49,972 bases of DNA, from NCBI GenBank assembly GCA_036271555.1, contig DATBAK010000076.1, positions 1 to 49,972 of the forward strand, written 5' to 3'. Positions 2,573-39,009 of the stretch are shown here, piece by piece. The stretch's first letter is position 1; the number at the start of each line of letters is the position of its first letter. The stretch comes from Acidimicrobiia bacterium (GTDB lineage Bacteria; Actinomycetota; Acidimicrobiia; IMCC26256; PALSA-610). The notes beneath the pieces are model-generated. The model was not told the origin of the DNA, did no database searches, and was given only the letters and a program-made list of their open reading frames with translations. A program made the translations under genes and the position numbers.

Positions 2573-3025
<453 letters not shown>

Positions 3026-3072: not shown

Positions 3073-4005
3073 ATGAAGGTCAGGTTCTGGGGAGTCCGCG
3101 GCTCGATTCCGGTTCCCGGAAAAGCCACGAACCGGTACGGGGGGAACACGTCGTGTGTCGAGGTCCGGCCGCGTGGCGACGCGCCGATCATCATCGACGC
3201 CGGCACCGGCATCCGGAAGCTCGGCAAGTCGCTGATGGAGGGCTCGTTCGGCGACGGCCACGGCCGCGCCGCGATCCTGATCAGCCACACCCACTGGGAT
3301 CACGTGCAGGGGCTGCCGTTCTTCTCGCCGTTCTATCGCGCGGGCAACCAGGTGAACATCTTCGCGCGCCAGCGCGACATGCACCTCGAGGCCGTGTTCA
3401 GCCAGCAGCACAACACGCCGTACTTCCCGGTGCCGCTGCAGGCGATGCAGGCCGACACGCACTTCCACGAGATCGTCGAGGGCAACACGTTCGCGATCGG
3501 GACCGCGAGGGTGTCGTGCACGCGGCTCAACCACCCGTGGGTCGCGATCGCGTACCGCGTCGAGGCCGACAACGCCGCGGTCGTGTACTGCTCGGACACC
3601 GCGCCGTTCACCGACATGCTGCTCGGGCGCGAGTTCGTCGAGCAGCCCGACATGCGCACGCTGCCGCCGCCGGTCGCCGCGGAGCTGCGCGCGATGCGGC
3701 AGGGCGTGGTGGCGCTCGCGCGCGGCGCCGATCTGCTGATCTACGACACGCAGTTCACGCCCGAGGAGTACCAGGTGCGTCCGCACTGGGGACACTCGCG
3801 GCCGGCCGACGCGATCGAGATCGCGCGCGAGGCCGGCGTCAAGCAGCTGTGCCTGTACCACCACGCGCCGATGCGCAGCGACGACGCGAACGACGCGATC
3901 CTGGTCGCGACGCGCGCGATGATCGAGAAGCGCGGCGACCCGTTCGGCGTCGTCAGCGCGTACGAGGGCCTCGAGCTCACCGTCGGCGAGGAGGATCCCG
4001 CGTGA
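3073..4005 (+). CDS. metallo-beta-lactamase-fold hydrolase (first of a tandem pair)
   Basis: The 310-residue protein begins MKVRFWGVRGSIPVPG and TNRYGGNTSCV, the hallmark N-terminus of a COG1235-like branch of metallo-beta-lactamase-fold hydrolases. The metal-binding HTHWDH is at about residues 72-77, and further ligand candidates are in LNHPW, YCSDTAPF and the C-terminal LYHHAP. Members hydrolyse phosphoesters or cyclic nucleotides in some cases, but the substrate cannot be told here. Its stop overlaps the GTG of a second paralogous gene, so the two are co-translated. The N-terminal RFWGVRGS motif fits cytosolic location; no signal peptide is seen. Confidence 0.88.
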   Translation: MKVRFWGVRGSIPVPGKATNRYGGNTSCVEVRPRGDAPIIIDAGTGIRKLGKSLMEGSFGDGHGRAAILISHTHWDHVQGLPFFSPFYRAGNQVNIFARQRDMHLEAVFSQQHNTPYFPVPLQAMQADTHFHEIVEGNTFAIGTARVSCTRLNHPWVAIAYRVEADNAAVVYCSDTAPFTDMLLGREFVEQPDMRTLPPPVAAELRAMRQGVVALARGADLLIYDTQFTPEEYQVRPHWGHSRPADAIEIAREAGVKQLCLYHHAPMRSDDANDAILVATRAMIEKRGDPFGVVSAYEGLELTVGEEDPA

Positions 4006-4847
4006 AGATCCGCTTCTGGGGCGTGCGCGGGTCGATCCCGGCGCCCGGGCCCGAGACGAACCGCTACGGCGGCAACACCGCGTGCGTGTCGATCGCGACC
4101 GCGAGCGGCGGGCTCGTCATCATCGACATGGGCACCGGCCTGATGCACCTCGGCAACGCGCTGATGGCGCAGGGCTTCGCGAAGGGCCAGGGGCGCGCGT
4201 CGATCCTGCTGTCGCACACGCACTGGGACCACATCCAGGGCCTCGGGTTCTTCCCGCCGGTGTTCGTCGCGGGCAACGAGATCACGCTATGGGGCCCCGG
4301 CGGCTCGGACCACGTGCTCGAGGAGATCCTCGAGGGTCAGATGGATCCGAACTTCTCGCCGCTGCAGACGCTGAAGAACTTCTCGGCGAAGTTCGAGGTC
4401 CACGCGGCGCCGCTCGATCGCACGTTCGAGGCCGAGGGCCTGACGATCACCGCGCGCGAGCATCCGCACGGCAACACGACGGCGCTGGCGTTCCGCATCG
4501 AGGAGCGCGGGCGCGTGTTCGTGTACGCCAGCGACGTCGGCTACCTCGACGCCGGCGTGGCGCCGCCCGAGGCGATCGCGCACTACCGCGGCGCGCACGT
4601 GCTGCTGCACGACACGACGTACAAGCCCGAGGACCAGGCGACCCGCCGCAACCGCGGCTTCTCGTCGTGGGACGAGGCCTGCGACGCCGCGCGGGCGGCC
4701 CAGGTCGAGCGCCTGGTGACGTTCCACTACGACCAGGACTACAGCGACGACGACGTCGACGCCATCATCGAGGCCTGCCGCGCGCGCCTCGCCGGCAGCG
4801 GCGTCCAGGTCGTGCCCGCGCGCGAGGGCGACGAGCTGGAGATCTGA
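4002..4847 (+). CDS. metallo-beta-lactamase-fold hydrolase (second of a tandem pair)
   Basis: This 281-residue paralogue of the preceding gene shares the opening KIRFWGVRGSIPAPG, RYGGNTACV, IIDMGTG and HTHWDH (about residues 72-77). It diverges in the middle and in its C-terminal half, where YASDVGYLD and LVTFHYDQDYSD supply candidate metal ligands. It is shorter than its neighbour and lacks the neighbour's LYHHAP. The start is GTG at 4002, overlapping the upstream stop in a GTGA arrangement. Keeping two diverged copies side by side suggests different substrates or a heteromeric enzyme; that is inference. Confidence 0.87.
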   Translation: MKIRFWGVRGSIPAPGPETNRYGGNTACVSIATASGGLVIIDMGTGLMHLGNALMAQGFAKGQGRASILLSHTHWDHIQGLGFFPPVFVAGNEITLWGPGGSDHVLEEILEGQMDPNFSPLQTLKNFSAKFEVHAAPLDRTFEAEGLTITAREHPHGNTTALAFRIEERGRVFVYASDVGYLDAGVAPPEAIAHYRGAHVLLHDTTYKPEDQATRRNRGFSSWDEACDAARAAQVERLVTFHYDQDYSDDDVDAIIEACRARLAGSGVQVVPAREGDELEI

Positions 4848-4858
4848 GGGGACGCGAC

Positions 4859-5911
4859 GTGCGCGTCCCTCTGTTCGACATGGCCGCAGAGCTCGCGCCG
4901 ATCCGCGGCGAGCTCGACGCGGCGATCGCGCGCGTCCTCGACTCCGGCATATTCATCGGCGGCGACGAAGTCGCGGGCTTCGAGCGCGAGCTGGCGGCGG
5001 CAACCCACGCCGCGCACGCCATCGGCGTCAGCTCCGGCACCGACGCGCTCCTCGCGGTCTTGATGGCGCTCGGCGTCGGTCCCGGCGACGAAGTGGTCAC
5101 GACGCCGTTCACGTTCTTCGCGACGATCGGCGCCGTCCTGCGGGTCGGCGCGCGCGTCGTGTTCGCGGACATCGATGACGCGATGACCCTGGATCCCGAG
5201 GCTGCGCTGTCGGCGTGCTCGCCGCGCACGCGCGCGATCCTGCCGGTGCACCTGTTCGGCCGCACGGCCCGTATCCCCAGTGCGCCGTGTGCGATCGTCG
5301 AGGATGCAGCGCAGGCAATCGGCGCCCCGCTCGGACCGATCGCCACCCTGTCGTTCTTCCCGACGAAGAATCTCGGCGCTCTCGGCGACGCCGGCGCGGT
5401 CATCGTCGATGACGACACCCTCGCCGACCGAGTCAAGCTCGTGCGAGGTCACGGCGCGCGGCCGAAGTATCACCACCTCGCGCTCGGTGGGAACTTCCGG
5501 CTCGACGCGCTCCAGGCCGCCGTGCTCCGGGCCAAGCTCGCGCACCTCGGCGACTGGACCGCTGCGCGCCGCCGCCACGCGGCCGCGTATCGCGCCGCCG
5601 CCGCCGCCACCCGCCTACCCGACGAGCTTCACCTTCCGGGCGACCACGCATCGCACGTTTATCACCAGTTCGTGATCCGCGCGCCGCGCCGCGACGCGCT
5701 CGCAGCGCACCTGGCCTCGTCCGGAATCGGAACCGAGATCTACTACCCGGAGCCGCTTCACCTCCAGCCGTGCGTATCCGGCTATCGGCGCGGTGCGTTC
5801 CCAGCCGCCGAGCGCGCCGCTCGCGAGGTCCTCGCTTTGCCGATCCATCCGATGCTTGCCCATGACACGCCCGCGCGTGTCATCGATGCCATCGCGGCCT
5901 TTTACCGATAG
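4859..5911 (+). CDS. DegT/DnrJ/EryC1/StrS-family sugar aminotransferase
   Basis: A PLP-dependent fold-type I enzyme of 350 residues that transfers an amino group to a keto-sugar nucleotide. It begins VPLFDMAAELAPI, has the early GVSSGTDALLAVLMALG cofactor-binding segment, the EDAAQAIGA motif, and the lysine in SFFPTKNLGALGDAG (about residue 170) that forms the Schiff base. NFRLDALQAAVL near residue 215 is also typical. The GTG start at 4859 is preceded by a strong GAGGGG ribosome site at good spacing. It opens the plus-strand glycan block, and the next gene follows after 10 bases, so the amino sugar is probably modified by neighbours. Confidence 0.92.
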   Translation: MRVPLFDMAAELAPIRGELDAAIARVLDSGIFIGGDEVAGFERELAAATHAAHAIGVSSGTDALLAVLMALGVGPGDEVVTTPFTFFATIGAVLRVGARVVFADIDDAMTLDPEAALSACSPRTRAILPVHLFGRTARIPSAPCAIVEDAAQAIGAPLGPIATLSFFPTKNLGALGDAGAVIVDDDTLADRVKLVRGHGARPKYHHLALGGNFRLDALQAAVLRAKLAHLGDWTAARRRHAAAYRAAAAATRLPDELHLPGDHASHVYHQFVIRAPRRDALAAHLASSGIGTEIYYPEPLHLQPCVSGYRRGAFPAAERAAREVLALPIHPMLAHDTPARVIDAIAAFYR

Positions 5912-5921
5912 GATTCGCGCG

Positions 5922-6938
5922 ATGGATGTACCTCGGATCGCCGTCGTCGGCGCGGGCACGTGGGGCTTGAACCACGCGCGCGTCGTCCGCGACGATCCGC
6001 GATGTGAGCTTCACGCGATCGTCGACACCGATCCCGATGCACGTGCACGCGCGACGAGTCTCGTGCCATCGACGATCGTCGTCTCGGATCCGGATCGCGT
6101 GTTCTCCGACCCGGCGATCGACGCCTGCATCGTCGCCACGCCTGCAGCCACGCACGTGGAGCTCGCACGCGCTGCGCTCGCAGCCGGCAAACATGTCCTC
6201 GTGGAGAAGCCCGTCGCGCTCGCGCTCGCGGACGCGAGGCGCCTCGCCGCAACGTCGGCGGCCGCGCCCCAGCTCGTCGCGATGGCCGGCCACCAGATGG
6301 TGTTCCATCCCGCGTTCGCGGCGCTGCGCATGCTCGCACGCGAGCGTGCTCTCGGTGACCTGTTGTACATCCACGCGATCCGCGCCGGCCAAGGGAGGAT
6401 CCGCCTCGATGAAGGTGTGATGTGGACCCTCGGACCGCACGAGCTGTCGATGTTGAACGCCCTTGTCGATGCGCCGATTCGAAGCGTGTCGGCACGTGGG
6501 CGTTGCCTGCACGCGCCGGGGATCGACGACATCGCATTCGTGACGCTCCACTACGCGACCGGGCAGCTAGCGCACCTCCACCTGTCCCGCATGCACGCGC
6601 GCAAGGAGCGCACGTTCACGGTTGCGGGCTCGCTCAGGGTGGCTCGGTTCGATGATCTCGCTCCCGCCAAGCTGCAGCTCTACGCCCAACGCGAGGACGA
6701 ACTGTCGCGGCCGGCTCCGTTCGAGCATCACGCGGTGTCACCTCCCGGCGATGCCATCGCGCTCCCAGCCACCGAACCGCTGCGCGCGCAGCTCGATCAC
6801 TTCCTCGATTGCATCGCCACCGGAGCCCGCCCCGTGACCGATGTCGCGGATGCCGTTCGGATCGTGGCGATCTTGGACGCTGCGCAACGCTCCCTGGCGC
6901 TGGACGGCGCGCCGATCGCAGTTACAACAGACTCATGA
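5922..6938 (+). CDS. Gfo/Idh/MocA-family NAD(P)-dependent sugar oxidoreductase
   Basis: The 338-residue protein has the N-terminal Rossmann motif in IAVVGAGTWGLNHARVV and the family signature EKPVALALADARRL near residue 95, where the Lys-Pro pair sits by the active site. GHQMVFHPAF and GPHELSMLNAL mark the C-terminal substrate domain with the expected histidine. These enzymes oxidise or reduce sugar nucleotides, often at C3, and frequently accompany a DegT aminotransferase as it does here. The likely pair would make a 3-amino sugar acid or similar compound, which is inference. Its TGA overlaps the ATG of the next gene. Confidence 0.9.
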   Translation: MDVPRIAVVGAGTWGLNHARVVRDDPRCELHAIVDTDPDARARATSLVPSTIVVSDPDRVFSDPAIDACIVATPAATHVELARAALAAGKHVLVEKPVALALADARRLAATSAAAPQLVAMAGHQMVFHPAFAALRMLARERALGDLLYIHAIRAGQGRIRLDEGVMWTLGPHELSMLNALVDAPIRSVSARGRCLHAPGIDDIAFVTLHYATGQLAHLHLSRMHARKERTFTVAGSLRVARFDDLAPAKLQLYAQREDELSRPAPFEHHAVSPPGDAIALPATEPLRAQLDHFLDCIATGARPVTDVADAVRIVAILDAAQRSLALDGAPIAVTTDS

Positions 6939-8908
6939 AGCGCGCGTACGCCGTGGCCGGCTTGCTGTGCGCGCTCGGGGCGCCGGTGCCGATGCTGACG
7001 GCGACGGCAACAGCGAGCGCGTTGCCAAGCTTCGATTCGCACACTCCGATGCGACCGCTGCCCGTCGCGTCGACGCGCCCAGCTGCGAGTGGCACCGTGC
7101 ACTACGTCGACGCGAAGGCTGGTGACGACAAGGCGAACGGCAACCAGCAGCATCCGTGGAAGTCGGTCGCCCACGCGATCGCCGCGGTCAAGGCCGGTGA
7201 GACGATCTACCTGCGAGCGGGGACGTACTGCGAGAGCGCCACGATCACGGCGAGTGGTACCGCGACCGCACCGATCACGATTCGATCCGCGCCCGGTGAG
7301 GTCGCTACGATCGATGCGGGCTTGTGCGAGTTCGAGACCGCGCCGCAATCGGCCTGGGAGCCGGTGACCGGCGGCGCGACCGGCGAGTACCAATCCACGG
7401 CCACCTACTCGACCGGCATCACGAACGACGTCGAGCGTGGCATCTGGATCCTCGGCAACTTCGCCGACTCGATGGTGCCGCTGCACGGCTATCGTTACGT
7501 GGCGGACCTGCGCTCCGACAATCCGTACTGGACCGTGAAGAACTCCGAGGCTGGCGCCGGCGTCTACCTCGGTCCGGGCCTGTGGTTCGACTGGTCGTCG
7601 CACCGCATTCACGTCCGGCTCGCGCACACGACGCTCGCGAGCCAACCCAACTACACCGGTGAGACCGACCCGAGAAAGCTGCCGCTTGTCGTCGGGATCG
7701 ACCGCAGCGCACTCGTGATCGATCACGCGAAGCACGTACGCATCCAGGACATCGTGTTCCGCGGCTCCGCGACCGACACCGTGCAGATCGCCGCCTCGGA
7801 CGCGATCGACCTCGACGGCGTCACGATCTACGGCGGCGCGCCAGCGCTGCGTGTCAAGTCGACGCATGGCTTCCGGCTCGTGCGCTCTGCGCTCCGCGGC
7901 GTCGCCGCACCGTGGTCGTCTCGCGCGAGCATGAAGTACCGCGGTGGCGCGCAGTACCTGTTCGTCGCCGGCAACAAAGCCCCGCAGAGCGAGGACTGGG
8001 AGATCGCGTACGACGAGCTGACCGACAGCCACGATGGGATCATCGTCGACAGCATCAAGAAGCTGCGGCTGCATCACGACCGCATCGACAACTTCAACGA
8101 CGACGGCATCTACCTCGCACTGCCCCCGCGAGATTCAGTTCCCGAGGACGTGCAGATCTACGAGAACTACATCTCGCGCGTGTACACGGTGATCGCTCAC
8201 GCGCAGCACAAGACGACGAGCAACACCGTCGGCCCCGGCGTCTACGTCTTTCGCAACGTGTTCGATCTGCGCGAGCCGACCTACAACTGGATCGCCAAGG
8301 ACGCGGACCTCGACGCGAGCGGCAACAAGGCCGGCATGCTCGCCAGCCGCATGTGCGGCGACCACGGCAGCCCCACGTGGGAGCCGCTGTTCGTCTATCA
8401 CAACACGATCGTCACGGCCGAAAACGCGTTCCGCAACTACTACGGCGCGATGCTCGTGATGGGGACGAAGGGCACGAAGCGTCGCTTGTTCGACAACATC
8501 TTCTTGCAGGTCAGCGGCAAGCCCGGCCTCTCGTTCGCCAACGCGACCGACGACCTTCAGGTCGACGGGAACCTACTGTGGAGCCTGACCGCCAACGCGG
8601 GCATCGATTATTTCAAGCAGTTTCGCAAGTCCAAGGTGTTCGAGGCGAGCAAGCAGGTCTACGCGCCTGGCTTCGGCGCGCACGACGTCTACGGCGACCC
8701 GAAGCTCGCGAGCGTGATCGCTGGAGTGCCGCTCGACGCACGCCTCGGCGGCGGCAGCCCAGCGATCGACGCCGGCCAGCCGGTGCCGAAGGATTGGCCC
8801 GATGTGCTCGCGACCTCGGACACCGGCGCGCCCGACATCGGCGCGCTACCGAACGGCACCGCGATGTTTGCGGTTGGGCCCGCCGCGGCGCCATCCGCAT
8901 CACCCTGA
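6935..8908 (+). CDS. secreted right-handed parallel beta-helix protein
   Basis: The 657-residue product has a signal peptide (MKRAYAVAGLLCALGA ... ATASA, about residues 1-27). It then shows the start common to extracellular pectate-lyase-like beta-helices: HYVDAKAGDDKANGNQQHPW, followed by IAAVKAGETIYLRAGTY. Repeated short strands with DAIDLDGVTIYGG, HHDRIDNFNDDGIYL and IYENYISRVYT fit the coils of the helix. The family includes polysaccharide lyases and epimerases, but I cannot identify catalytic residues. The start overlaps the upstream oxidoreductase stop (ATGA). It is the only secreted protein in this part of the operon and may act on the polymer. Its 3' end overlaps the opposite-strand gene by 9 bases. 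Confidence 0.8.
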   Translation: MKRAYAVAGLLCALGAPVPMLTATATASALPSFDSHTPMRPLPVASTRPAASGTVHYVDAKAGDDKANGNQQHPWKSVAHAIAAVKAGETIYLRAGTYCESATITASGTATAPITIRSAPGEVATIDAGLCEFETAPQSAWEPVTGGATGEYQSTATYSTGITNDVERGIWILGNFADSMVPLHGYRYVADLRSDNPYWTVKNSEAGAGVYLGPGLWFDWSSHRIHVRLAHTTLASQPNYTGETDPRKLPLVVGIDRSALVIDHAKHVRIQDIVFRGSATDTVQIAASDAIDLDGVTIYGGAPALRVKSTHGFRLVRSALRGVAAPWSSRASMKYRGGAQYLFVAGNKAPQSEDWEIAYDELTDSHDGIIVDSIKKLRLHHDRIDNFNDDGIYLALPPRDSVPEDVQIYENYISRVYTVIAHAQHKTTSNTVGPGVYVFRNVFDLREPTYNWIAKDADLDASGNKAGMLASRMCGDHGSPTWEPLFVYHNTIVTAENAFRNYYGAMLVMGTKGTKRRLFDNIFLQVSGKPGLSFANATDDLQVDGNLLWSLTANAGIDYFKQFRKSKVFEASKQVYAPGFGAHDVYGDPKLASVIAGVPLDARLGGGSPAIDAGQPVPKDWPDVLATSDTGAPDIGALPNGTAMFAVGPAAAPSASP

Positions 8909-10294
8909 CGCGAGCCGACGCAGCTCGTCGACAGCAATAGCGATCGGAGACGGCAGAGGGACGCGGATCAGCGCGGCCGACTGATCCGTGGCGAACTTCG
9001 GGAGCCGCGGCACGTGCACCGTGACCGGGAACCGCGCCGGCAGCTCCGCGCATGCGGCTTCGACGGCGAGCTTCGCGGCGCGAAGATCCGCTGGGCCGCC
9101 CGGCCCGTCGAGGACCGCCGTCGATGGTACCCACACGACGAGCGGTATCGCCGCGGCGCCGAGCGCGATGGTCTCGGCCACCACGTCATCGAGGCTCGTC
9201 GCGAGCACACGCATCGCGAGCTCGCGCTCCGACCTCGGAGCCGGGTTCGCGACGTAATAGAGATGCGTCGGCGGTGCGCTCGCTCCCCATCGCTGCGCGA
9301 GCACGCCCGGAGCGAGCACATCGAACTCGAACGAGCGCACTGGATGTCCCGTTGCAGCGAGCTCGCCAGCGACCCTCGCCGCGTCGCGTTCGCCAACGCG
9401 GTACGTGAAGGCGACGTCGGCGCCGCCGAGGGCGAGCGCCTTGACCAGCGCCTCGCCGAGCCCGCGGGATCCGCCAATGACGAGCGCACGCTGAGAGGCG
9501 TACTCGGAAGGTGCGACGAGTCGCACCACCTCATCGAGAGGCACGACCGCGGGTGGCGGTCGGTAGAAGGTGTCGAGCGTGCCGCTCCAAACCGCGCCGC
9601 GCACGGACAGCGCGATCGACGAGTAGCGCGCGATCGCCTTCGCCACCTCGTAGCGCAATACCGCGTCGCCGCCCGCGTGCGGTAGCTGAGAGGTCAGCGC
9701 GAGACCCGCGTACAGGGAATGGAGTCCGGGAGCGATCATGCCGACGAGGCGCGTCGTCGCGAGGAGCTCGGCCACTGCGAGATTGCCTAGACGCGCCACA
9801 CACGCCGGGAACGTACGAGACGCACGCTCGACATCGAGCATCAGCACGAGAGCGCCGCTAGCGCTGGCGGCGTCGTCGAACGACCGGTCGAGCGCGTCGG
9901 CCGAGCCGGGCGGCTGCAGGATGCGGTTGGCGCGCACGTGCGACGCGTCACGCATCTGGAACGCCAGATCGAGCACGACGCGCCCGTCGTCACGGACCTC
10001 GATGGTGTCGGTGTCGAACCGCGCCACGAGCTCGCGATCGAGGTACGCCGGGTTGCGGAACGCGGCACGGACGCGATCCACCACGACCTCGCCACTCGCG
10101 CCTGCAAGAGCTCCCTCGAGCGCCCACATCACGAGATGCACGCCGTGCACGACCGGTGCGCCGAGCAGAGTCCGCCGCGCCGCCACCGGGTCGACGTGCA
10201 GCAGGTTCCAGTCGCCCGACAGCTCGGCGAACTCGCGCTGGTCGGCGAGCGTGAATGCTCGCGCGATCGCTGGGATCGGCCGGACGGATGTCAC
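8900..10294 (-). CDS. MaoC-like hotdog dehydratase fused to a short-chain dehydrogenase/reductase
   Basis: The 464-residue protein combines two domains. The N-terminus carries FAELSGDWNLLHVDP and GAPVVHGVHLVMWALEG (residues 20-60), the hydratase motif of MaoC-type hotdog folds with its Asp/His pair. The C-terminal half begins with a Rossmann motif VIGGSRGLGEALVKALALGG (about residue 268) and reads as an SDR reductase. I do not see a clear SDR Ser-Tyr-x3-Lys triad, so activity is uncertain. The start is GTG at 10294. It lies on the minus strand inside a plus-strand operon, convergent with the beta-helix gene and divergent from the deacetylase. A role in making or trimming an acyl-carrier-bound acid is suggested by the neighbouring FkbH and ACP genes. 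Confidence 0.75.
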   Translation of the reverse strand: MTSVRPIPAIARAFTLADQREFAELSGDWNLLHVDPVAARRTLLGAPVVHGVHLVMWALEGALAGASGEVVVDRVRAAFRNPAYLDRELVARFDTDTIEVRDDGRVVLDLAFQMRDASHVRANRILQPPGSADALDRSFDDAASASGALVLMLDVERASRTFPACVARLGNLAVAELLATTRLVGMIAPGLHSLYAGLALTSQLPHAGGDAVLRYEVAKAIARYSSIALSVRGAVWSGTLDTFYRPPPAVVPLDEVVRLVAPSEYASQRALVIGGSRGLGEALVKALALGGADVAFTYRVGERDAARVAGELAATGHPVRSFEFDVLAPGVLAQRWGASAPPTHLYYVANPAPRSERELAMRVLATSLDDVVAETIALGAAAIPLVVWVPSTAVLDGPGGPADLRAAKLAVEAACAELPARFPVTVHVPRLPKFATDQSAALIRVPLPSPIAIAVDELRRLASG

Positions 10295-10295
10295 G

Positions 10296-11183
10296 GTGAG
10301 ACGGCCATGCTACCTGTTGGCCGTGGCTGCCGGCTCCCTTTGCATCTCGATCGACCTCGAGCTGGCGTGGGGAACGTGGGACAAGCCATCCGCGGACGTC
10401 CATGTACGGTGTGCGGAGCGCGAGCGCGACATCGTCGGTCGACTCGTCGCGATGTTCGAGAGCCACGACGTATCAGCGACGTGGGCAATCGTCGGCCGCT
10501 TGCTCGATCGGGACGCGGAGCGCAGCGGCGAGATCTGGTACGCGCCCGATCTCGTCGACAAGATCCGCGGTGCGCGCGTCGAGCAGGACATCGGCTCGCA
10601 CGGCTACGCGCACATCTACTTCGGCAGCGCCAGTCGTGACGACCTGCGCGCCGACCTCGAGGCCGCGCGCGACATCCACGGGCGGCACGGCCTACCGTTT
10701 ACGTCGTTCGTGTTTCCGCGCAACCAGGTCGCCCATCTCGATCTGCTGCGCGCGGTCGGAATCCGCGTGTTCCGCAGCGTCGACCTCGGCTGGCACATCG
10801 CCGTGCGCCGGAGGCTTGGTGCGGTCGCCGGTCGCGTCGCGAACCTGGCCGACAAGATGCTGCCAGTCCCGCCGGCGGTCGTCGAGCCGATCGAGCACGA
10901 CGGGCTTGTCGAGCTACCGAGCTCGATGCTGCTGCTCGCACGCAACGGACTGCGGCGCGCGGTACATCCGGCGGCGATCGTCGCGAAGGCGGAGCTTGGC
11001 TTGTCGCGAGCGTGCCGAGGCGGCACCTTCCACCTCTGGTTTCATCCGTCGAACTTCTATTACGATACCGACCGCCAGCTCGAGACGCTCGAGAAAATCA
11101 TTCGGCGTGCCGCGCATCTACGCGACCGCGGGCAGCTCTCCATCCGACCGATGAACACGTTCGCGTCCACGAGCATCCAGTAG
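10296..11183 (+). CDS. polysaccharide deacetylase-family protein
   Basis: The protein of about 295 residues matches the NodB-type carbohydrate esterase 4 fold. It has SIDLELAWG in place of the usual TFDDG-like metal motif, the HxxxH motif in GSHGYAHIYFG, FVFPRNQVAHLDLL as the arginine/proline motif, and a late FHLWFHPSNFYYD containing the catalytic His region. The family removes N-acetyl groups from sugars or peptidoglycan-like polymers. The start is unclear: GTG at 10296 leaves one base before the divergent gene's start, while GTG at 10323 is the shorter alternative. No signal peptide is convincing, which suggests cytoplasmic action on a lipid-linked or nucleotide-linked sugar. Confidence 0.8.
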   Translation: MRRPCYLLAVAAGSLCISIDLELAWGTWDKPSADVHVRCAERERDIVGRLVAMFESHDVSATWAIVGRLLDRDAERSGEIWYAPDLVDKIRGARVEQDIGSHGYAHIYFGSASRDDLRADLEAARDIHGRHGLPFTSFVFPRNQVAHLDLLRAVGIRVFRSVDLGWHIAVRRRLGAVAGRVANLADKMLPVPPAVVEPIEHDGLVELPSSMLLLARNGLRRAVHPAAIVAKAELGLSRACRGGTFHLWFHPSNFYYDTDRQLETLEKIIRRAAHLRDRGQLSIRPMNTFASTSIQ

Positions 11184-11193
11184 CAGCCGTTCG

Positions 11194-13023
11194 ATGAGCG
11201 ATCCTGCGTCTGTCCCTGCGTCCGGTCCTGGCTCCGTTGCCGACATCCTGTCCTCGGTCGACTCCAAACCGGCATCGTATTTACTCGCGGCGCGGCGACT
11301 CGCGGCGCTACCCGCGCATGCCCGTGACGGTCTCGCCCCGGTCCGCGTGTTCGTGCTCGCGAGCTTCACGTTCGATTTGCTCGTGCCGTACCTCTTGGTC
11401 GAGTGCGCGCGACGAGGACTCGATGCCGCCGTCGAGACCGGGCCGTTCAATCAGCTCGAGCAACTGGTGCTCGATCGCGAAAGCGCGCTTTGGACGGCCG
11501 CCCCCGACGTCGTAATCGTCGCGCCGCGTCTCGAGGATCTCGCGCCGGAGCTCGATGCACAGTTCCTGTCGACGGCGACCGACGCGGCGATCGACGGTTA
11601 CGTGTCACGGATTGTCGGCCTCGTCCGCGCGCTCCGCACCGACTCGGCCGCGCGTGTCGTGTTGTGGAACCAGGCACCGCCGCAACGGCTCGTCGCCGGA
11701 CTCGCGGACGTCGCGCTCGAGCACGGCCAGCAATACGCGGTCGCGGAGCTCGATCGCCGCCTTGCGCGCGCATGTACCTCGATCCCCGGCGTCATCATGC
11801 TCGACGTGGCGCGGCTCGCGAGCGAGCTCGGGACGCGCCAGTGGTACGACGCGAAGCTGCAGGCTCTCGCGCGCGTGCCGCTGACAGCTGCCGCGCAGAT
11901 CGCCGTCGCAGCCCGAACCGCACGAACCCTGCGTGCCATGCGGCGCGCGCCGGCGAAGTGCCTGGTTCTCGACCTCGACAACACGCTCTGGGGTGGCGTG
12001 CTCGGCGAGGACGGCCTGGCCGGGATCGCGCTCGGTGAGGACTATCCCGGTAGCGTCTACAAGACGTTCCAGCGCGTGCTTCGCGGCTATCGCGACCGTG
12101 GCGTGCTGCTCGCGATCGCGAGCAAGAACAACGCGACAGACGTCGACGAGCTGTTCGCGAGCCATCGCGACATGGTGCTGACGCGCGATGACTTCGCGGC
12201 GATGCAGATCCACTGGAACGACAAGGCCAGCAGCCTCCGCACGATCGCCGCGGAGCTCGAGATCGGCATCGACAGCCTGGTGTTCTTCGACGATAGCCCG
12301 GTGGAGCGAGCGTGGGTCCGTGACCAGCTGCCCGAGGTGACCGTCGTCGACGTGCCGGGCGATCCGGTCGGCTACGTAGCCGCGCTGGACGATTGCGGCG
12401 CGTTCGATCACCTCGTCGTCACCGCCGAGGACCGGCAGCGCGCGGAGCAGTATATCCAGCAGCGCGAACGCGTCGCACTCGAGCACAGCACGGGTTCCGT
12501 CGAGGAATTCCTGCACGCGCTGCAGATGACGGCGACGATCGGTCGGCTCGACACCGCGACCCTCCCACGCGCCGCCCAGCTGCTCGCGAAGACGAACCAG
12601 TTCAACGTGACGACGCGCCGCCACGACGAGGCGGCGCTACAGGCGATGCTCGCACGAGATGGGGCCATCGCCCTGTGGATGCGGGTCGCGGATCGATACG
12701 GTGACAATGGTCTCGTCGCGCTCGCGATCGCGTTGCCGTCGCCGGCCAGTGACGCCTACGTGCTCGACAGCTTCCTCATGAGCTGTCGGGTGCTCGGGCG
12801 TAGCGTCGAGAACGCACTCTTGTGGTCGGTCGCTCGCCGCGCGCGTTCCCACGCGACGGCGCTCCTCGGTGAGTGGATCCCGACGAAGAAGAACAAACCT
12901 GCGGCGGGCTTCTTCGCGAGCACGGGGTTCGTGCCCGACGGGGAGCGTCCGAATTGCTGGCGGCTGGACCTCACCCAACTTGCCCCGCCGGCACTCGCGT
13001 TCGAGTTGTTCGAGGAGTCATGA
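11194..13023 (+). CDS. FkbH-like HAD-IIIC protein (glyceryl/acyl-carrier loading type)
   Basis: The 609-residue protein has the three-part FkbH layout. There is an N-terminal region of about 230 residues (VRVFVLASFTFDLLVPYL), a HAD domain with motif I DLDNTLWGGVLGEDG near residue 258, IASKNN as motif II, and FFDDSPVERAWV near residue 364. A C-terminal GNAT-like region ends with YGDNGLVALAI and LMSCRVLGR. FkbH proteins load a glyceryl unit from 1,3-bisphosphoglycerate onto an acyl carrier protein. The stop overlaps the ATG of the adjacent carrier protein, the expected partner. It starts 10 bases after the deacetylase gene. Confidence 0.9.
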   Translation: MSDPASVPASGPGSVADILSSVDSKPASYLLAARRLAALPAHARDGLAPVRVFVLASFTFDLLVPYLLVECARRGLDAAVETGPFNQLEQLVLDRESALWTAAPDVVIVAPRLEDLAPELDAQFLSTATDAAIDGYVSRIVGLVRALRTDSAARVVLWNQAPPQRLVAGLADVALEHGQQYAVAELDRRLARACTSIPGVIMLDVARLASELGTRQWYDAKLQALARVPLTAAAQIAVAARTARTLRAMRRAPAKCLVLDLDNTLWGGVLGEDGLAGIALGEDYPGSVYKTFQRVLRGYRDRGVLLAIASKNNATDVDELFASHRDMVLTRDDFAAMQIHWNDKASSLRTIAAELEIGIDSLVFFDDSPVERAWVRDQLPEVTVVDVPGDPVGYVAALDDCGAFDHLVVTAEDRQRAEQYIQQRERVALEHSTGSVEEFLHALQMTATIGRLDTATLPRAAQLLAKTNQFNVTTRRHDEAALQAMLARDGAIALWMRVADRYGDNGLVALAIALPSPASDAYVLDSFLMSCRVLGRSVENALLWSVARRARSHATALLGEWIPTKKNKPAAGFFASTGFVPDGERPNCWRLDLTQLAPPALAFELFEES

Positions 13024-13268
13024 CCGCCGCAACCGATCTGAAGACGCGCATCCGCAACGTTGTCGCCGTGGCGCTCGATATTCCACCGAGCACGATCGAC
13101 GACACGACCAGCTCGACGACCGTCGAGGAATGGGACTCGATGAACCACATCCAGCTGATCGTGGCGCTCGAAGGCGAGTTCGGCGTGTCGTTCGAGCCCG
13201 AGCGCGCGGTCGAGCTCGTCAGCGTCGCGGAGATCGAACGCGCCCTGATCGCGCTCGGCGTGACGTAG
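13020..13268 (+). CDS. stand-alone acyl carrier protein
   Basis: This 82-residue acidic protein has the EEWDSMNHIQL motif, in which Ser40 is the site for 4'-phosphopantetheine attachment. The residues around it (Asp-Ser-Met) match acyl carrier proteins. It starts with the A of the upstream ATGA overlap and ends one base before a possible GTG start of the acyltransferase gene. Together with the FkbH-like enzyme it would hold an acyl group, perhaps glyceryl, for transfer to a sugar by the following GNAT protein. It is far too short to be a modular synthase domain. Confidence 0.92.
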   Translation: MTAATDLKTRIRNVVAVALDIPPSTIDDTTSSTTVEEWDSMNHIQLIVALEGEFGVSFEPERAVELVSVAEIERALIALGVT

Positions 13269-13276
13269 TGGCCGCG

Positions 13277-14152
13277 ATGGCAGGCACGATCCGACGCGCG
13301 CAGGCCTCGGACCTCGATGCCGTGTCTGCGTATCTGGCGCGCGCACTGGGGGGTAGCGGCGACCGCGCGTCACCAGGTCGCTACCGCCGCTTCTTGAGTT
13401 ATTCGTGGCTTGCCTCCGTGGACAAGCCTGACCTCGGCATCGTGCTCGACGTCGACGGCGCGGTGTGCGGGTTCATCGGCGCGATTTATTCGCGGCGTGA
13501 TATCCGCGGGGCAACGGTCCGGTGCTGCAACCTGACCAGCATCGCGGTCGACGACAAGCATCGCGGTCACACGCTCAAGATGTTCGCGGCACTGTTCGCC
13601 GACAAAGACGTCTCGTTCACGTGCTTCTCGGCATCCGAAGAGGTCGCGAAGATCCTCGACTTCTTCAAGTTCAAGCACCGCGCTAGCGAGCGTATCGTCG
13701 CGACTCCGCTGTCGGGGCTTACGGGAGCGTGGTCGGCGCACCGGGTCGAGGTGGTCACGTCGCCGCGCGCGCTCGACGCGGCGCTGACCACCGACGAGCT
13801 GACCATCGCACGCGACCATCGCGCGTACCGGTGCGGACAGCTCCTGCTCGTCTCCGGGCAACGACGCTGCTTCGTCGTCACCATCCGTCGCGGCCGCGGC
13901 GCGCGCGCGTTCGCAGACGTATTGCACGCGAGCGATCCCGAGCTGTTGATGACGCACCTATCGCGTGTCCACGGGCCGCTGTTCCGCGCACATCGGACGC
14001 TGCTGACCGGCATCGATCGCGCGTGGGTCGCGCACCAACCCGCGGCGTCGTTCGTGTATCGCAACCTGCGTCCGGTCTATCTCCGGTCTTCTGCCCTCCA
14101 ACTCGACGAAGTGGACGCGCTCTACAGCGAGCTCGTCCCGATGTACGGATGA
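13277..14152 (+). CDS. GNAT-type N-acyltransferase
   Basis: The 291-residue protein begins with IRRAQASDLDAVSAYLARAL, typical of GNAT folds, and has the acyl-CoA/acyl-carrier binding motif in LTSIAVDDKHRGHTLKMFAALF, with the LDFFKFKHRA strand in the expected later position. The C-terminal half (from about residue 140) extends beyond a single GNAT domain and is not recognised. Start choice is between GTG at 13268, which overlaps the upstream stop, and ATG at 13277. Position right after the carrier protein suggests it transfers the carrier-bound acyl group to an amino sugar. That is inference from context. Confidence 0.72.
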   Translation: MAGTIRRAQASDLDAVSAYLARALGGSGDRASPGRYRRFLSYSWLASVDKPDLGIVLDVDGAVCGFIGAIYSRRDIRGATVRCCNLTSIAVDDKHRGHTLKMFAALFADKDVSFTCFSASEEVAKILDFFKFKHRASERIVATPLSGLTGAWSAHRVEVVTSPRALDAALTTDELTIARDHRAYRCGQLLLVSGQRRCFVVTIRRGRGARAFADVLHASDPELLMTHLSRVHGPLFRAHRTLLTGIDRAWVAHQPAASFVYRNLRPVYLRSSALQLDEVDALYSELVPMYG

Positions 14153-15315
14153 CCGTGTCGATCGCGTTCGTGTTCACGAATCCCAAGCATCATCTCGAGA
14201 TGATGGCCCCGGTGGCCGCGGAGCTGCGGTCGCGCGGCATCGCGTGCGATCTCCTGTCGCTGGCCGAGTTGCGCGGGCTCGAGACACCCGCGGGCGCGCG
14301 GCGGGTCATCCCGCTGAACCTGCGCAAGCGCCGCGGCCAGCCAGCGCTGGCGAGCGAACACGCGGTCGGTTGGAGCCGCGGCAGCATCGCCAAGCGCGCG
14401 GTGTGGTCGCTGGTGCTTGCACCCGCGATGCGGGTGTTGCTGCGGCACGCACGTGTCGTCGTGGTGCCCAACGACGCGGTGTATCCGTACAGCGAGCTCG
14501 TCGCAGCGATGCGTGCGCGGGGCGTCGCGACCGTCCTGATGCAGGAAGGCATCCGGTTCCCGCTCCCGGATGGTTATCGCGGTCCGCAGTACGGTGCGGC
14601 GGTCGACGTGGTGTGCGCGTGGGGTGAGGGCAGCCGCGATTACTTCGTCGCGAGCGGGGTCGCGCCGCGCGTGATCGAGGTCACCGGCGCGCCTCGGCTC
14701 GACACGCTCGATCCTGGAGCGTGGCGCGACGGGGCCGCGGCGCTGCTCGCGCGCCACAAGCTCGCGACCGCGCCGCTCGCGTTCCTGTCGAACCCGATCG
14801 AGATCCAGGGCTACGGGGACAAGCGGATCAAGCTCGATCTGTTCGCGCGCGTGCTCGCCGAGGCGGCGCCGCTGTTACGCGCCCGTGGGATCCCCGTGCT
14901 GGTCAAGAACCACGCGCACGAGGATCCGGCCGACTTCCGTCGCGTCGCGGACGCGAGCCCGATCGCGGACCTCGTGACGCTGGCACCCGAGGCCTCGATC
15001 TTCGCGGCGATCGCAGCGTCGCGCGCTGCGATCGTCCTGACCTCGACGGTCGGTCTCGAGTCGCTCGTCTTCGATCGCCCGATCGGCGTGCTCGAGATCC
15101 CGGGACACGGCTACGCGTTCGAGTACGTCCAGCAGGGCGCGGCAACCCCACTTCGACACGACGCGCTCGCGCGCGACATCGAGCAACTTCTCGCGCCACC
15201 CGCCGAGCGACGAACCGCTGGCGAAGCATTCATCCGTCGACATCTCCACGACCGTGGTCGCGCGCGGTACCATGTCGCGGCCGTCCTAGAGCGCGCGCTC
15301 GCGAGGCACACATGA
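14149..15315 (+). CDS. GT-B-like glycosyltransferase/capsule-type polysaccharide enzyme
   Basis: A 388-residue protein with SIAFVFTNPKHHLEMMAPVAAELRSRG at the N-terminus, a Rossmann-like half ending near PNDAVYPYSELV, and a second half that carries LTSTVGLESLVFDRPIGVLEIPG (about residues 300-325). That serine-threonine-rich loop with a conserved glutamate is shared by capsule enzymes such as KpsC/KpsS and by UDP-GlcNAc 2-epimerase-like glycosyltransferases. Donor and linkage cannot be told. No membrane segment is seen. The ATG overlaps the upstream stop and the TGA overlaps the next start, so it is tightly coupled in the operon. Confidence 0.72.
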   Translation: MTVSIAFVFTNPKHHLEMMAPVAAELRSRGIACDLLSLAELRGLETPAGARRVIPLNLRKRRGQPALASEHAVGWSRGSIAKRAVWSLVLAPAMRVLLRHARVVVVPNDAVYPYSELVAAMRARGVATVLMQEGIRFPLPDGYRGPQYGAAVDVVCAWGEGSRDYFVASGVAPRVIEVTGAPRLDTLDPGAWRDGAAALLARHKLATAPLAFLSNPIEIQGYGDKRIKLDLFARVLAEAAPLLRARGIPVLVKNHAHEDPADFRRVADASPIADLVTLAPEASIFAAIAASRAAIVLTSTVGLESLVFDRPIGVLEIPGHGYAFEYVQQGAATPLRHDALARDIEQLLAPPAERRTAGEAFIRRHLHDRGRARYHVAAVLERALARHT

Positions 15316-16373
15316 CGCAGTTCTCGGTTGGCATCGTCGGTTGCGGTCTGATTTCGGCTGCGCATCTCTCGGCATGGCAGCGCACGCCCGGGTTTCGCGT
15401 GCGCGGCGTGCTCGACACCAATCTCGAGCAGGCGAAGAAACGCGCAGGTGAGTTCGGTGTCGAAACGGTCTACGATCGCCTCGACCAGCTCGTCGAAGAA
15501 TGCGACATCGTCGACGTCTGTACGCCCCCGCAGAGCCACGCCGCGATCGCGGAGCAGGCAATCGCGCGCAAGCGCCACCTCGTGATGGAGAAGCCCGTCG
15601 TCACGAAGCTAGCCGACTGGGAGCGCATGGCTGCGAAGGTCACCGAAGCGAAGTGCAAGCTCGCGGTCATCCACAACGCGAAGTTTCTGCACAGCATCCA
15701 GCTCGCGAAGCGCTGGGTCGATGCCGGACGCATCGGCGAGGTCATCCGTGTCCACCGCGAGTTCCTCACTCACGAGAGCACCGACCGGATGCTCGTCGGC
15801 GACAAGCACTGGTCGCACAAGCTCCCCGGGGGCCGCTGGTTCGAGACACTCCCGCACGAGCTGTACCTGACTCATTGGTTCGCGGGTCCGCTCGAGGTCG
15901 CGAACGTGACCGCGATCCGTACGCCGACCGCGCCTCCGGGAACGTCAGCCGATGAGATCCTCGTCACGCTCTCAGGTGGTCACACGATCGCCTCGTTCCA
16001 GTTTTCGGCCAACTGCCGCGAGAACCGGCGCACGCTCACGCTGCAGGGCACGACCGGACGCATCGTCGTCGACATGCTCAGCGACTTCGCGACGTTGTCG
16101 ACCCTCCAAGACTCGAAGATCCGACGCGCGGTCGGTCGATCGATTGTCGAGGCGGGTGGCGCGCTGCTCCAGGCGGTCCCGGACCGGGGCCGTTACGGCT
16201 TGCAGCGGCTCCGCAAGGAGTCGCCGCACCTACGCATCATCCAGTCACTTGGCCGCAATCTGCAGGGCCAGGGTGACGAGCCCACGCCGTTCGCCGAGGT
16301 CGATTACGTGATCCGCAACTGTGATCGCATCGGCCGCGAAATCGATCGTCAGGTCGGCTTCACCCGAGCGTAG
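15312..16373 (+). CDS. Gfo/Idh/MocA-family oxidoreductase (second copy)
   Basis: The 353-residue protein has the Rossmann motif in VGIVGCGLISAAHLSAW and the EKPVVTKLADWERM signature, followed by the central AVIHNAKFLHSIQLA. It is distinct from the first Gfo/Idh protein, since the C-terminal region has ETLPHELYLTHWFAGPLE in place of the GPHELSMLN seen there. Reaction is probably NAD(P)-dependent oxidation or reduction of a sugar derivative. It overlaps the preceding gene by ATGA and closes the block before the gene for a lipoprotein. A short inverted repeat (16374-16379 with 16392-16397) sits right after the stop. Confidence 0.88.
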   Translation: MTQFSVGIVGCGLISAAHLSAWQRTPGFRVRGVLDTNLEQAKKRAGEFGVETVYDRLDQLVEECDIVDVCTPPQSHAAIAEQAIARKRHLVMEKPVVTKLADWERMAAKVTEAKCKLAVIHNAKFLHSIQLAKRWVDAGRIGEVIRVHREFLTHESTDRMLVGDKHWSHKLPGGRWFETLPHELYLTHWFAGPLEVANVTAIRTPTAPPGTSADEILVTLSGGHTIASFQFSANCRENRRTLTLQGTTGRIVVDMLSDFATLSTLQDSKIRRAVGRSIVEAGGALLQAVPDRGRYGLQRLRKESPHLRIIQSLGRNLQGQGDEPTPFAEVDYVIRNCDRIGREIDRQVGFTRA

Positions 16374-16398: not shown

Positions 16399-17238
16399 GT
16401 GAGGGTTGGGCTCGGAGCTTTCCTTTTGATGGGCTGCTCGTTCAGTCCGTCGAACGCGACTCCAACCGACTCCTCCGTGGACGGTGTGAGCGATGCCTCC
16501 CACGTCCTGCCCGACGCAAACGGCGATGCCTCGAACGACGGGAACTCGGGTGGACGCGTGACCAGCGGCCTCGTTGCGCTGTGGACGTTCGACGATGGAG
16601 GCGGCAGCGTCGCGAACGAGACCAGCGGCGTTCTCCCCGCCGTACCGCTGTCGATCAGCAAGGGCGCGGTGACCTGGGGCGCGGGTACGATGACCGTGGC
16701 TGGACCGACGTTGTTGCTGTCGGACGTTGGCTCGGCGACCCGCCTCAGCCAGGCCGTCCTCGGAGGCCACGGAGTCACGCTGGAGGCGTGGGTCGACCCC
16801 GCAGCTTCGAGCGAGGGTAGCCCTACAACACCCGCGACGGTGGCAGGGATCGACTCCAGTGTGAGCTCGCGCGACATCTCGATCTTTCAGGTCGGCGATC
16901 AGTGGATGGGACGAGTCCGTACGAACATGACTGACCCGGCATGGCAGAACGGTGGCCCTGACCTGCTGCCGGCACCGAACGTGGTCGTGGCTGGTGTGAT
17001 GACTCACATCGTGCTCGTGGCGGACGATACGAACCGTGCGCTCTACGTCGACGGACAGCAGATCGCTTCGACGCCTCCGGAGGCACCGTTCAAGTGGGAC
17101 GGGTCCTACAAGATGGTGCTCGCCAACGACAACAACACCTTGATGCGGGCGTGGACGGGGACGTATGCCCTGGTTGCTGTCTACGACCGCGCGCTCGGCT
17201 CTGCCGAGATCGAGGCGAACTTCATCGCCGGCCCTTGA
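16399..17238 (+). CDS. LamG/concanavalin-like lipoprotein
   Basis: The 279-residue product begins VRVGLGAFLLMGCSF, a short signal with lipobox cysteine at about residue 13, and then a Ser/Asp-rich linker. The following domain (residues 55-279) has VALWTFDDGGGSVANETSG, GVTLEAWVDP and YKMVLANDNN ... WTGTYALVAVYDRAL, the pattern of the laminin-G-like jelly-roll fold in bacterial surface lectins. It probably binds a polysaccharide or sits at the cell surface. The GTG at 16399 is the start that gives the signal sequence; the longer frame has no signal. It lies between the Gfo/Idh gene and a giant lipoprotein. Confidence 0.78.
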   Translation: MRVGLGAFLLMGCSFSPSNATPTDSSVDGVSDASHVLPDANGDASNDGNSGGRVTSGLVALWTFDDGGGSVANETSGVLPAVPLSISKGAVTWGAGTMTVAGPTLLLSDVGSATRLSQAVLGGHGVTLEAWVDPAASSEGSPTTPATVAGIDSSVSSRDISIFQVGDQWMGRVRTNMTDPAWQNGGPDLLPAPNVVVAGVMTHIVLVADDTNRALYVDGQQIASTPPEAPFKWDGSYKMVLANDNNTLMRAWTGTYALVAVYDRALGSAEIEANFIAGP

Positions 17239-17329
17239 CGGTCGAATAAACGTTGAGGCGTGAACCGGACACAAACCGCGTATGCGGTGTTGGGTTATCC
17301 TGGCTCCGAGTTTGAAGAAGGGATCTATT

Positions 17330-38215: not shown

Positions 38216-38950
38216 TCAGTGATTCTCTTCGTTGATCTTCGCGACGATGTCCGGGTGGCCAACCCACTGCTCGGAGTAGAAAACATCGATCAGGCCGTGG
38301 ATGTCGCGGCCAGTCACCCACGGCCGAACGATTGGAAGGACGCTCTTGCCCATCCACCACCACGGGTTTGGACCGTCCTGGGTCTGAACGGTGCGCTTGC
38401 GGAAGGCCCACACACCCTGATCGTAGTAGTAGGCTTTCGGGTAGCTCTGACGCTCTGTGGATACCTTGCGCGGACCACCGAACGTCTCGATCAGGCCGTC
38501 GTTGTTGATCTGGAGGGCGCGGTACGGATGATCATCTGCAGCCTCCCAGACCGTCATTACCGAGTCGAGCTCGCGGCGCTCGTCGAGCAACCCGAGAGCT
38601 CGATCGATGATCTCGCCATCGATGTACACGGTATTGCCGAGCAGCAAGACGATGTTCTCGAGGTTGTCGACGCGCGCGTCGACGTACTCGACGGCGTGCT
38701 TGATCACGATGCCGTGATTGACGCTGTCTCCGCCGAGCTCGTCCGGGCGCGGGATGATCTTCGCGCCGGCATCGCGCGAGGCCGACGCGATCGCGTCGCC
38801 GTCGGTCGACACCCAGACCTCGGCGATGCGCTTCGCCGCCTGGGCGGCTTTGATGGGGTACTGCACCATCGGCTGCCCGCATAGGGGCAGCACGTTCTTG
38901 TCGATGATGGACTTCGAACCTGCGCGGGCGGTGACGATCGCTACATTCAT
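38216..38950 (-). CDS. cytidylyltransferase (CMP-sugar/NeuA-like family)
   Basis: The 244-residue protein opens with VAIVTARAGSKSIIDKNVLPL, the CTP-binding signature of acylneuraminate-type cytidylyltransferases, and LPLCGQPMVQYPIKAA. VSTDGDAIASA follows and fits the fold. A C-terminal stretch (DQGVWAFRKRTVQ) is less conserved. It would activate a sugar or polyol phosphate with CTP. No NeuB-type synthase is present, so a sialic acid is not supported. The ATG at 38950 lies 59 bases from the preceding GT stop. With the epimerase and HAD hydrolase it forms a candidate pathway for an unidentified CMP/CDP-linked sugar. Confidence 0.85.
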   Translation of the reverse strand: MNVAIVTARAGSKSIIDKNVLPLCGQPMVQYPIKAAQAAKRIAEVWVSTDGDAIASASRDAGAKIIPRPDELGGDSVNHGIVIKHAVEYVDARVDNLENIVLLLGNTVYIDGEIIDRALGLLDERRELDSVMTVWEAADDHPYRALQINNDGLIETFGGPRKVSTERQSYPKAYYYDQGVWAFRKRTVQTQDGPNPWWWMGKSVLPIVRPWVTGRDIHGLIDVFYSEQWVGHPDIVAKINEENH

Positions 38951-39009
38951 GACTGAACGCGGGCGGTTATAGCGTAGTTAGTGTCCGGTCGGGCCATCCG
39001 CGTTCGCGG

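Follow-up and report, generated by a model that had tools for sequence, protein, structure and literature searches.

How would a loader enzyme of the FkbH family and a stand-alone acyl carrier protein (ACP) serve a locus that appears to build a surface polysaccharide? The question is raised by ten genes (positions 4859–16373) on contig DATBAK010000076.1 of the Acidimicrobiia bacterium assembly GCA_036271555.1, of which a stretch of 49,972 nucleotides was analysed as a whole (hereafter, the window). The original prediction for this DNA held that the FkbH-like enzyme loads an acyl group onto the ACP and that a GNAT acyltransferase passes this group to an amino sugar. Our analysis revealed gene content, catalytic motifs and a conserved association of FkbH, ACP, MaoC and acyltransferase genes, and we see an even chance that together they form an acyl-carrier module decorating an amino sugar of a surface polysaccharide. 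The loader, the carrier and their linkage are well supported by sequence, whilst for the substrate, the transfer and the acceptor we infer the roles set out below.

The window FkbH protein keeps the HAD motifs (DxDxT, S, K, DD) as D260, D262, T264, S310, K344, D366 and D367, all of which are invariant among six aligned FkbH proteins, as is C531 of the SCR motif; we take the HAD motifs and the SCR cysteine to have their customary roles. D39 and S40 of the ACP were invariant across seven aligned carriers or candidates. The window FkbH is a predicted glyceryl transferase/phosphatase, FkbH domains being described in the available text of PMC8949500 as loading and dephosphorylating D-1,3-bisphosphoglycerate to leave a glyceryl group on the carrier. 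FkbH was uncommon, occurring in 4/58 genomes of the assembly's order, 12/296 of its phylum (11 over the cut-off) and 0/14 control genomes. Two phosphopantetheinyl transferase genes were present in the assembly, both on contigs other than that of the window.

An FkbH alignment scan with one genome per species gave at least 585 relatives; the 80 closest of these were retained and all entered the survey, which thus describes the nearest relatives rather than a sample of all FkbH genes. With 14 loci from the assembly's phylum and the window itself, 95 loci were labelled by clustering and similarity, cluster representatives being identified by Pfam; gene calls were automatic (own script, tried on the window) and the labels are threshold-dependent. 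Among the 80 closest loci, an ACP gene lay within three genes of FkbH in 71, was adjacent on the same strand in 64 and was separated by a gap of 30 nucleotides or less in 51, and ACPs filled 69/297 positions at one to two genes from FkbH against 3/704 at three to eight. The expectation that FkbH proteins belong mostly to polyketide pathways, in keeping with the available text of PMC8949500 and PMC4552970, which places FkbH domains rather in polyketide synthase (PKS) lines, did not hold for these relatives: a PKS cluster was found in 0/80, a non-ribosomal peptide synthetase (NRPS)/AMP-ligase cluster in 7/80 (the member in locus L141 being an exosortase AMP ligase), and glycan markers, counted up to eight genes away from FkbH, in 46/80. 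None of these three labels was given to 29/80 loci, 10 of which comprise less than 11 kb of DNA. Deacetylase genes, present in 12/80 loci, were near rather than adjacent to FkbH (5/297 positions at one to two genes, 6/138 at three and 1/566 beyond).

Because the locus also holds a fusion of MaoC with a short-chain dehydrogenase/reductase (SDR), which the original prediction overlooked, the acyl group may in the end be something other than plain glyceryl. MaoC was found within three genes of FkbH in 26/80 closest loci (13 of them fusions), at 26/297 positions one to two genes away against 1/704 at three to eight, and where present it therefore stands no further from FkbH than does the ACP; an SDR lay within three genes in 20/80. 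Since it stands within two genes of FkbH in those 26 loci, MaoC belongs, as judged from gene neighbourhood, to the FkbH-ACP module. The residues D28 and H33 of MaoC are invariant in 14 aligned fusions, and its domain score exceeds the cut-off (41.4 against 27 bits). The AlphaFold2 model of the fusion (14 rows; predicted local distance difference test, pLDDT, 81.5) consists of two hot-dog-like halves and an SDR, with best fold matches to the DH-ER-KR region of PKS, fatty acid synthase, hot-dog thioesterases, MaoC hydratases and SDRs. The cofactor loop is retained in the SDR half, which carries Leu404 (codon CTT) at the position of the catalytic Tyr of YxxxK, four residues before Lys408; among 16 aligned fusions this position is Tyr in 14, Phe in L080 and Leu in the window, the fusions of L141 (Ideonella) and L058 being among those with Tyr. 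Leu404 weakens the idea that the window fusion simply makes lactyl-ACP, and since the window SDR looks dead, we argue that lactyl is probably not made there.

In an FkbH tree of 94 rows (the fragment L072 was dropped), the window protein fell in a five-member clade (support 100/100) with those of L074 (SAR116), L075 (Myxococcales), L076 (Bryobacterales) and L079 (Verrucomicrobiia). An ACP stands beside FkbH in 5/5 of these loci; MaoC-SDR and a GNAT or GNAT-like gene accompany it in the window, L074 and L075, a hexapeptide transferase occurs in L079, and L076 has neither. PseG (217.8 bits, cut-off 153.55) and PseI (497.6 bits, cut-off 340.25) mark L075 as a pseudaminic acid locus, with the order GNAT-FkbH-ACP-MaoC/SDR, its GNAT matching the PseH model below the cut-off, and L080 has the order MaoC/SDR-FkbH-ACP-GNAT, its GNAT matching Acetyltransf_9 over the cut-off. 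Two loci from the assembly's order, L060 and L061, hold a deacetylase, an ACP, FkbH and a GNAT-like protein; that of L060 scored over a GNAT cut-off, and that of L061 (5786–6856) gave only a sub-threshold match (16.3 bits against a cut-off of 27) to FeeM, which belongs to the N-acyl amino acid synthases and draws its acyl group from acyl-ACP. L058 has FkbH with MaoC-SDR next but one, the latter being the only other near-full-length match among the matches listed from the 296 phylum genomes, with five candidates scored per genome. As firm support L058 was set aside: its by-eye carrier candidate and its GNAT-like protein, located between and next to these two genes, match no Pfam family at E 0.01, and it counts only for FkbH and MaoC-SDR. 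Neighbourhood context mapped on the tree was likewise rejected as a guide to origin, neither the PKS nor the MaoC label forming one clade (10 changes each, with 58 and 40 of 500 shuffles as low) and the PKS labels there being noisy through the inclusion of AMP ligases and β-ketoacyl-ACP synthase III (KASIII).

The GNAT-like protein (family P0008), as the putative transferase, is the weakest link of the scheme. The family was found in 3/296 genomes of the assembly's phylum, window included, and in 1/15 genomes behind other loci. All four members (window, L069, L070 and L141) lie near a carrier over the PF00550 cut-off, as the next gene in L069, the third gene on in L070 and in the order ACP-FkbH-MaoC/SDR-GNAT in L141, and it is because its family follows ACPs that the window protein is a likely transferase. 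L070 and L141 also have exosortase-A-associated genes over cut-offs. The AlphaFold2 model of the window protein (4 rows; pLDDT 58.1) gave Eis2, Ard1 and Gna1 as best folds in Foldseek (E about 2e-5 for Eis2 and Ard1), suggesting a GNAT-like fold and no more, its confidence being too low to tell a user of coenzyme A (CoA) from a user of ACP. At the usual CoA loop of GNATs, RxxGxG/A, the window protein reads RGHTLK, L069 RKFSMQ and L070 RAGSLG.

For the acceptor, a PDB sequence search with the window aminotransferase ranked the 2oga transaminase (267 bits) first, followed by 7b0d (263), WbpE (228), QdtB (223), perosamine synthetase (126) and ArnB (115). We take 2oga to be the 3-aminotransferase DesV, and WbpE and QdtB, the closest of the solved relatives that bear a name, to be C-3 aminotransferases. 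As the enzyme scores best with 2oga, then 7b0d, WbpE and QdtB, a ranking by bit scores only, the acceptor is likely a 3-amino sugar made with the Gfo/Idh oxidoreductase at 5922, which shows below-cut-off matches to inositol 2-dehydrogenase and UDP-GlcNAc 3-dehydrogenase models. The glycan setting first proposed was confirmed by a downstream polysaccharide locus: ten further window proteins that were scanned comprise an acyltransferase, a GT4 glycosyltransferase, a Wzz and AAA-domain (Wzc-like) protein, an export (Wza-like) protein, a Wzy-like ligase/polymerase, a cytidylyltransferase and PglD-, DegT- and PglF-like proteins, the family scan giving none for the protein at 23757–25076. The cytidylyltransferase, PglD-like, DegT and PglF-like genes (38219–43785) make up another amino-sugar route, which includes an acetyltransferase of its own.

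In the mechanism that we propose, FkbH would take D-1,3-bisphosphoglycerate, remove the phosphate and place glyceryl on the phosphopantetheine of the ACP, as its family suggests. In a second and uncertain step, MaoC may dehydrate glyceryl-ACP to an enol and thus pyruvyl, which an SDR could reduce to lactyl; in the window, where the SDR keeps its cofactor motif without the catalytic Tyr, this reduction is doubtful. The Gfo/Idh oxidoreductase and DegT aminotransferase would make a 3-amino nucleotide sugar, the GNAT-like enzyme would move the three-carbon acyl group from the ACP to the sugar nitrogen, and the decorated sugar would then be built into a polymer by the downstream Wzy-type locus.

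By analogy, carrier-protein-based sugar acylation has partial precedents. In the BryA loading module of bryostatin, FkbH, ACP, DH and KR make D-lactyl, which is the logic behind the MaoC/SDR step; FkbH, carrier, dehydratase and reductase all occur in the window, but as discrete proteins in a glycan locus and with the SDR Tyr missing. In Campylobacter jejuni, ACP and FabH-type genes presumably adjoin the fkbH-domain gene cj1302. According to the available text of PMC7099621, cj1302 belongs to the flagellar glycan region, and dimethylglyceric pseudaminic acids are seen in strain 11168 but not in strain 12664, in which cj1302 is a pseudogene (n = 1). The likeness is that of an FkbH-type gene in a sugar-decorating locus, whereas the C. 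jejuni glycan is that of flagellin and the window has a MaoC-SDR and no KASIII among the 20 window proteins scanned. Perosamine nitrogen in Vibrio cholerae O1 bears tetronate, with RfbL (WbeL) as ligase and RfbK as putative carrier (available text of PMC12208996 and PMC3441752). There too an O-antigen locus places a short hydroxy acid on an amino-sugar nitrogen after activation on CoA or a carrier; in those texts, however, RfbK is no more than a putative site of attachment in place of CoA, and 2,4-dihydroxybutanoate is loaded by a putative CoA ligase, whereas the loader of the window is FkbH, acting presumably on 1,3-bisphosphoglycerate. The FkbH-ACP pairs of glycerate-bearing NRPS/PKS and tetronate pathways share the loader family and the kind of carrier with the window, but in those pathways the acyl group becomes part of a polyketide or peptide, whereas in the window the pair is surrounded by genes for sugars and polymer. 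A product of the predicted kind is known from nature, the O-antigen of Pragia fontium 97U124 carrying an N-(D-glyceroyl) amino sugar (available text of PMC10609480); its link to FkbH is a prediction. For glycan loci, an FkbH-ACP-MaoC/SDR module was not found in print, nor were archaeal forms of it, in a search without most subscription journals. As a separate observation, FkbH of L066 (on an AT-rich contig) stands beside a KASIII gene with a sugar-transferase-like gene nearby (by eye), which recalls the C. jejuni arrangement.

Most of the comparative evidence fits loading of the ACP by FkbH and acylation of an amino sugar by a GNAT as first predicted (the ACP near FkbH in 71/80 loci, P0008 near an ACP in 4/4, an N-D-glyceroyl sugar known); what the prediction did not provide for is the MaoC-SDR and that GNAT is not the commonest transferase. 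Several findings weigh against this reading. The GNAT-like identity depends on a sub-threshold Pfam match (18.6 against 25 bits) and a low-confidence model, whose best folds include acetyl-CoA enzymes; the sequence RRHGIG of the relative in L141 fits the CoA-type RxxGxG loop; and GNATs near FkbH span several families (Acetyltransf_3 in L074, Acetyltransf_9 in L080). In 53/80 loci, no MaoC was detected up to eight genes from FkbH. A GNAT lay within three genes of FkbH in only 6/80 (a lower bound from five GNAT queries only), MBOAT (20/80) and hexapeptide (21/80) transferases being commoner; any of the three types was present in 45/80. In the window, the opposed gene separates the aminotransferase and first Gfo/Idh from FkbH. 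In the available text of PMC7099621, C. jejuni 12661 also lacks dimethylglyceric sugars though said to lack cj1301 and not cj1302, and the gene shown to be needed is cj1295, cj1302 itself being without a test there.

Some of these points would also suit an arrangement in which FkbH and ACP make an acyl-ACP, the GNAT-like protein simply uses acetyl-CoA in the role of PseH or WbpD, and the acyl group goes elsewhere, for example to O-acylation of the polymer by the PF01757 membrane acyltransferase that the window encodes at 20723–21832. The acetyl-CoA enzymes among the matched folds and the many FkbH/ACP loci with MBOAT or hexapeptide transferases instead are in its favour; however, the P0008 homologues lie near ACPs in all four loci, and the window protein (RGHTLK) lacks the glycines of the usual CoA loop, though L141 keeps them, and we regard this alternative as rather unlikely, at about one chance in four in our judgement. 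Less probable still, and distinctly so, is that FkbH proteins of the window clade use some other acyl phosphate, or that MaoC works as a hydratase, so that the transferred group is not glycerate-derived. MaoC enzymes are often hydratases, and we know of no tested member of the window FkbH clade; the HAD motifs and SCR cysteine are nevertheless conserved. The available text of PMC4552970 mentions unusual extender units and an FkbH-like module thought not to work, but the FkbH systems of PMC8949500, in its available text, use glyceryl. That the genes instead make a small natural product or lipid of polyketide or NRPS-like kind and only happen to stand beside the polysaccharide locus is very improbable, since against the PKS lines of FkbH domains cited above and the PKS-like neighbours in L063–L065, L067 and L071 stand the counts for the 80 closest loci (the PKS cluster in none, the NRPS/AMP-ligase cluster in 7, glycan markers in 46) and the finding of no ketosynthase, condensation or adenylation family among the 20 window proteins scanned (about 43 genes were called in the window). 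A polyketide by-product reading is accordingly unsupported by the family scans and locus labels, and Pfam and NCBIfam scans of the ten proteins of the locus gave no AMP-ligase family.

Returning to the acyl-carrier module, the survey extends it to archaea, which contributed 14 of the 80 FkbH loci (L085, L089–L091, L093, L094, L096, L097, L100, L103, L108, L111, L129 and L134, from Nitrososphaerota, Asgard, Bathyarchaea, Micrarchaea, Nanoarchaea and Methanospirillaceae, several being metagenome bins). In all 14 an ACP stands no more than two genes from FkbH, in 12 an AcpS-type phosphopantetheinyl transferase lies within six genes, and acyltransferases and deacetylases are often present as well. 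MBOAT membrane acyltransferases near FkbH (among them those of L079, L092, L097, L098, L101, L102, L116, L117 and L121), which we take to be DltB/AlgI-like, suggest, by analogy with D-alanylation, transfer of glyceryl from the ACP across the membrane. In the Paraburkholderia loci L117 and L130, an MBOAT takes the place of the GNAT. It is tempting, if still doubtful, to see in all of these loci a widespread self-contained pathway in which FkbH diverts 1,3-bisphosphoglycerate to a dedicated ACP, MaoC and SDR convert the product to pyruvyl- or lactyl-ACP, and interchangeable GNAT, hexapeptide or MBOAT transferases place it onto surface glycans of bacteria and archaea, the window being a dead-reductase variant that stops at glyceryl or pyruvyl. 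The MaoC and SDR pair would then, with the same reservation, be a tentative stand-alone counterpart of the PKS dehydratase-ketoreductase pair. If true, surface sugars would be decorated straight from a glycolytic intermediate, through a carrier-protein chemistry familiar above all from the making of polyketides and fatty acids, the origin of N-glyceroyl (perhaps also N-lactoyl and pyruvoyl) sugars in O-antigens would be explained, and archaeal ACP and AcpS genes would gain a role outside fatty acid synthesis; related enzyme sets occur in many bacteria, even archaea, and the idea is partly precedented. Across the 95 labelled loci, a methyltransferase family accompanied FkbH in 7 and a VOC/glyoxalase family in 10 (L127, L128, L151, L106, L138, L098 and L086 were named for this observation), with O-methyl-glycerate making as one possible function.

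The window contig may be misbinned in its assembly. Two D-Tyr-tRNA deacylase genes, 52 percent identical, are present, at 2573–3022 of the window and at G000:C23:2138-2572 on another contig; within the assembly's family the window gene reaches at most 59 percent identity, and outside it the best match, at 60 percent, is in a Myxococcota genome. By eye, several window proteins resemble those of myxobacteria, and tetranucleotide correlation was 0.91–0.96 with ten other stretches of the assembly against 0.96–0.97 inside the window, a small difference. Because of this possible misbinning, members of the assembly's own order and phylum were rejected as close kin of the window and retained only as extra loci.

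The examined stretch holds ten genes as a forward run of three, one opposed gene and a forward run of six (Table 1). Families were assigned by Pfam and NCBIfam profile scans against curated cut-offs; the calls are firm for the aminotransferase, both Gfo/Idh oxidoreductases, FkbH and ACP, less so for the deacetylase, whilst the GNAT-like and 14149 proteins are only weakly supported. The enzymes named originally were thereby upheld except for the GNAT and GT-B-like assignments, which stay weak; a PDB sequence search with the 14149 protein gave no credible solved relative (best E 0.18). The tight order described as one run gave way to two forward runs, the beta-helix gene and the minus-strand MaoC-SDR having been overlooked, and a single polycistronic operon was rejected with the MaoC-SDR gene on the other strand. 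Repeated ATGA overlaps were borne out at four of the seven same-strand junctions (6935, 13020, 14149 and 15312), the remaining three having gaps of 10, 10 and 8 nucleotides, of which the last hinges on the GNAT start.

Table 1. Genes of the examined stretch, with window coordinates and the profile matches behind each assignment.
Feature	Coordinates	Strand	Evidence and remarks
DegT/DnrJ/EryC1 sugar aminotransferase	4859..5911	+	PF01041 2.3e-89
Gfo/Idh/MocA oxidoreductase, candidate sugar 3-dehydrogenase	5922..6938	+	PF01408 3.4e-25
Right-handed beta-helix protein	6935..8908	+	DUF1565 26 bits (cut-off 20.3), Beta_helix below cut-off; signal-like N-terminus by eye
MaoC (double hot-dog) hydratase/dehydratase-SDR fusion	8900..10294	-	PF01575 41.4 bits (cut-off 27), PF00106 27.5 bits
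Polysaccharide deacetylase family protein	~10323..11183 (start uncertain, 10251-10323)	+	PF01522 28.1 bits (cut-off 23.1), 2.1e-6
FkbH protein: FkbH_N, HAD-IIIC and C-terminal domain	11194..13023	+	TIGR01686 283 bits (cut-off 146.65), PF21211 31.9 bits
Stand-alone ACP	13020..13268	+	PF00550 32.2 bits (cut-off 20.8); DS site residues 39-40, codons from 13134
GNAT-like acyltransferase (P0008), predicted acyl-ACP user	13277..14152 (alternative start 13268)	+	PF13527 18.6 bits, below cut-off 25
Surface-carbohydrate protein (P0009), possibly GT-B, weak assignment	14149..15315	+	TIGR04396 34.6 bits (cut-off 125); no Pfam family
Second Gfo/Idh/MocA oxidoreductase	15312..16373	+	PF01408 2.2e-28; ATGA overlap

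Just upstream of the locus, at 3073–4847, stand two tandem and similar genes of metallo-beta-lactamase fold (by eye) with a 4-nucleotide overlap. Two genes that, by eye, encode putative secreted or lipoproteins lie inside the locus at 16429–20683, the second product (1117 amino acids) containing repeats and being rich in Cys at its end.

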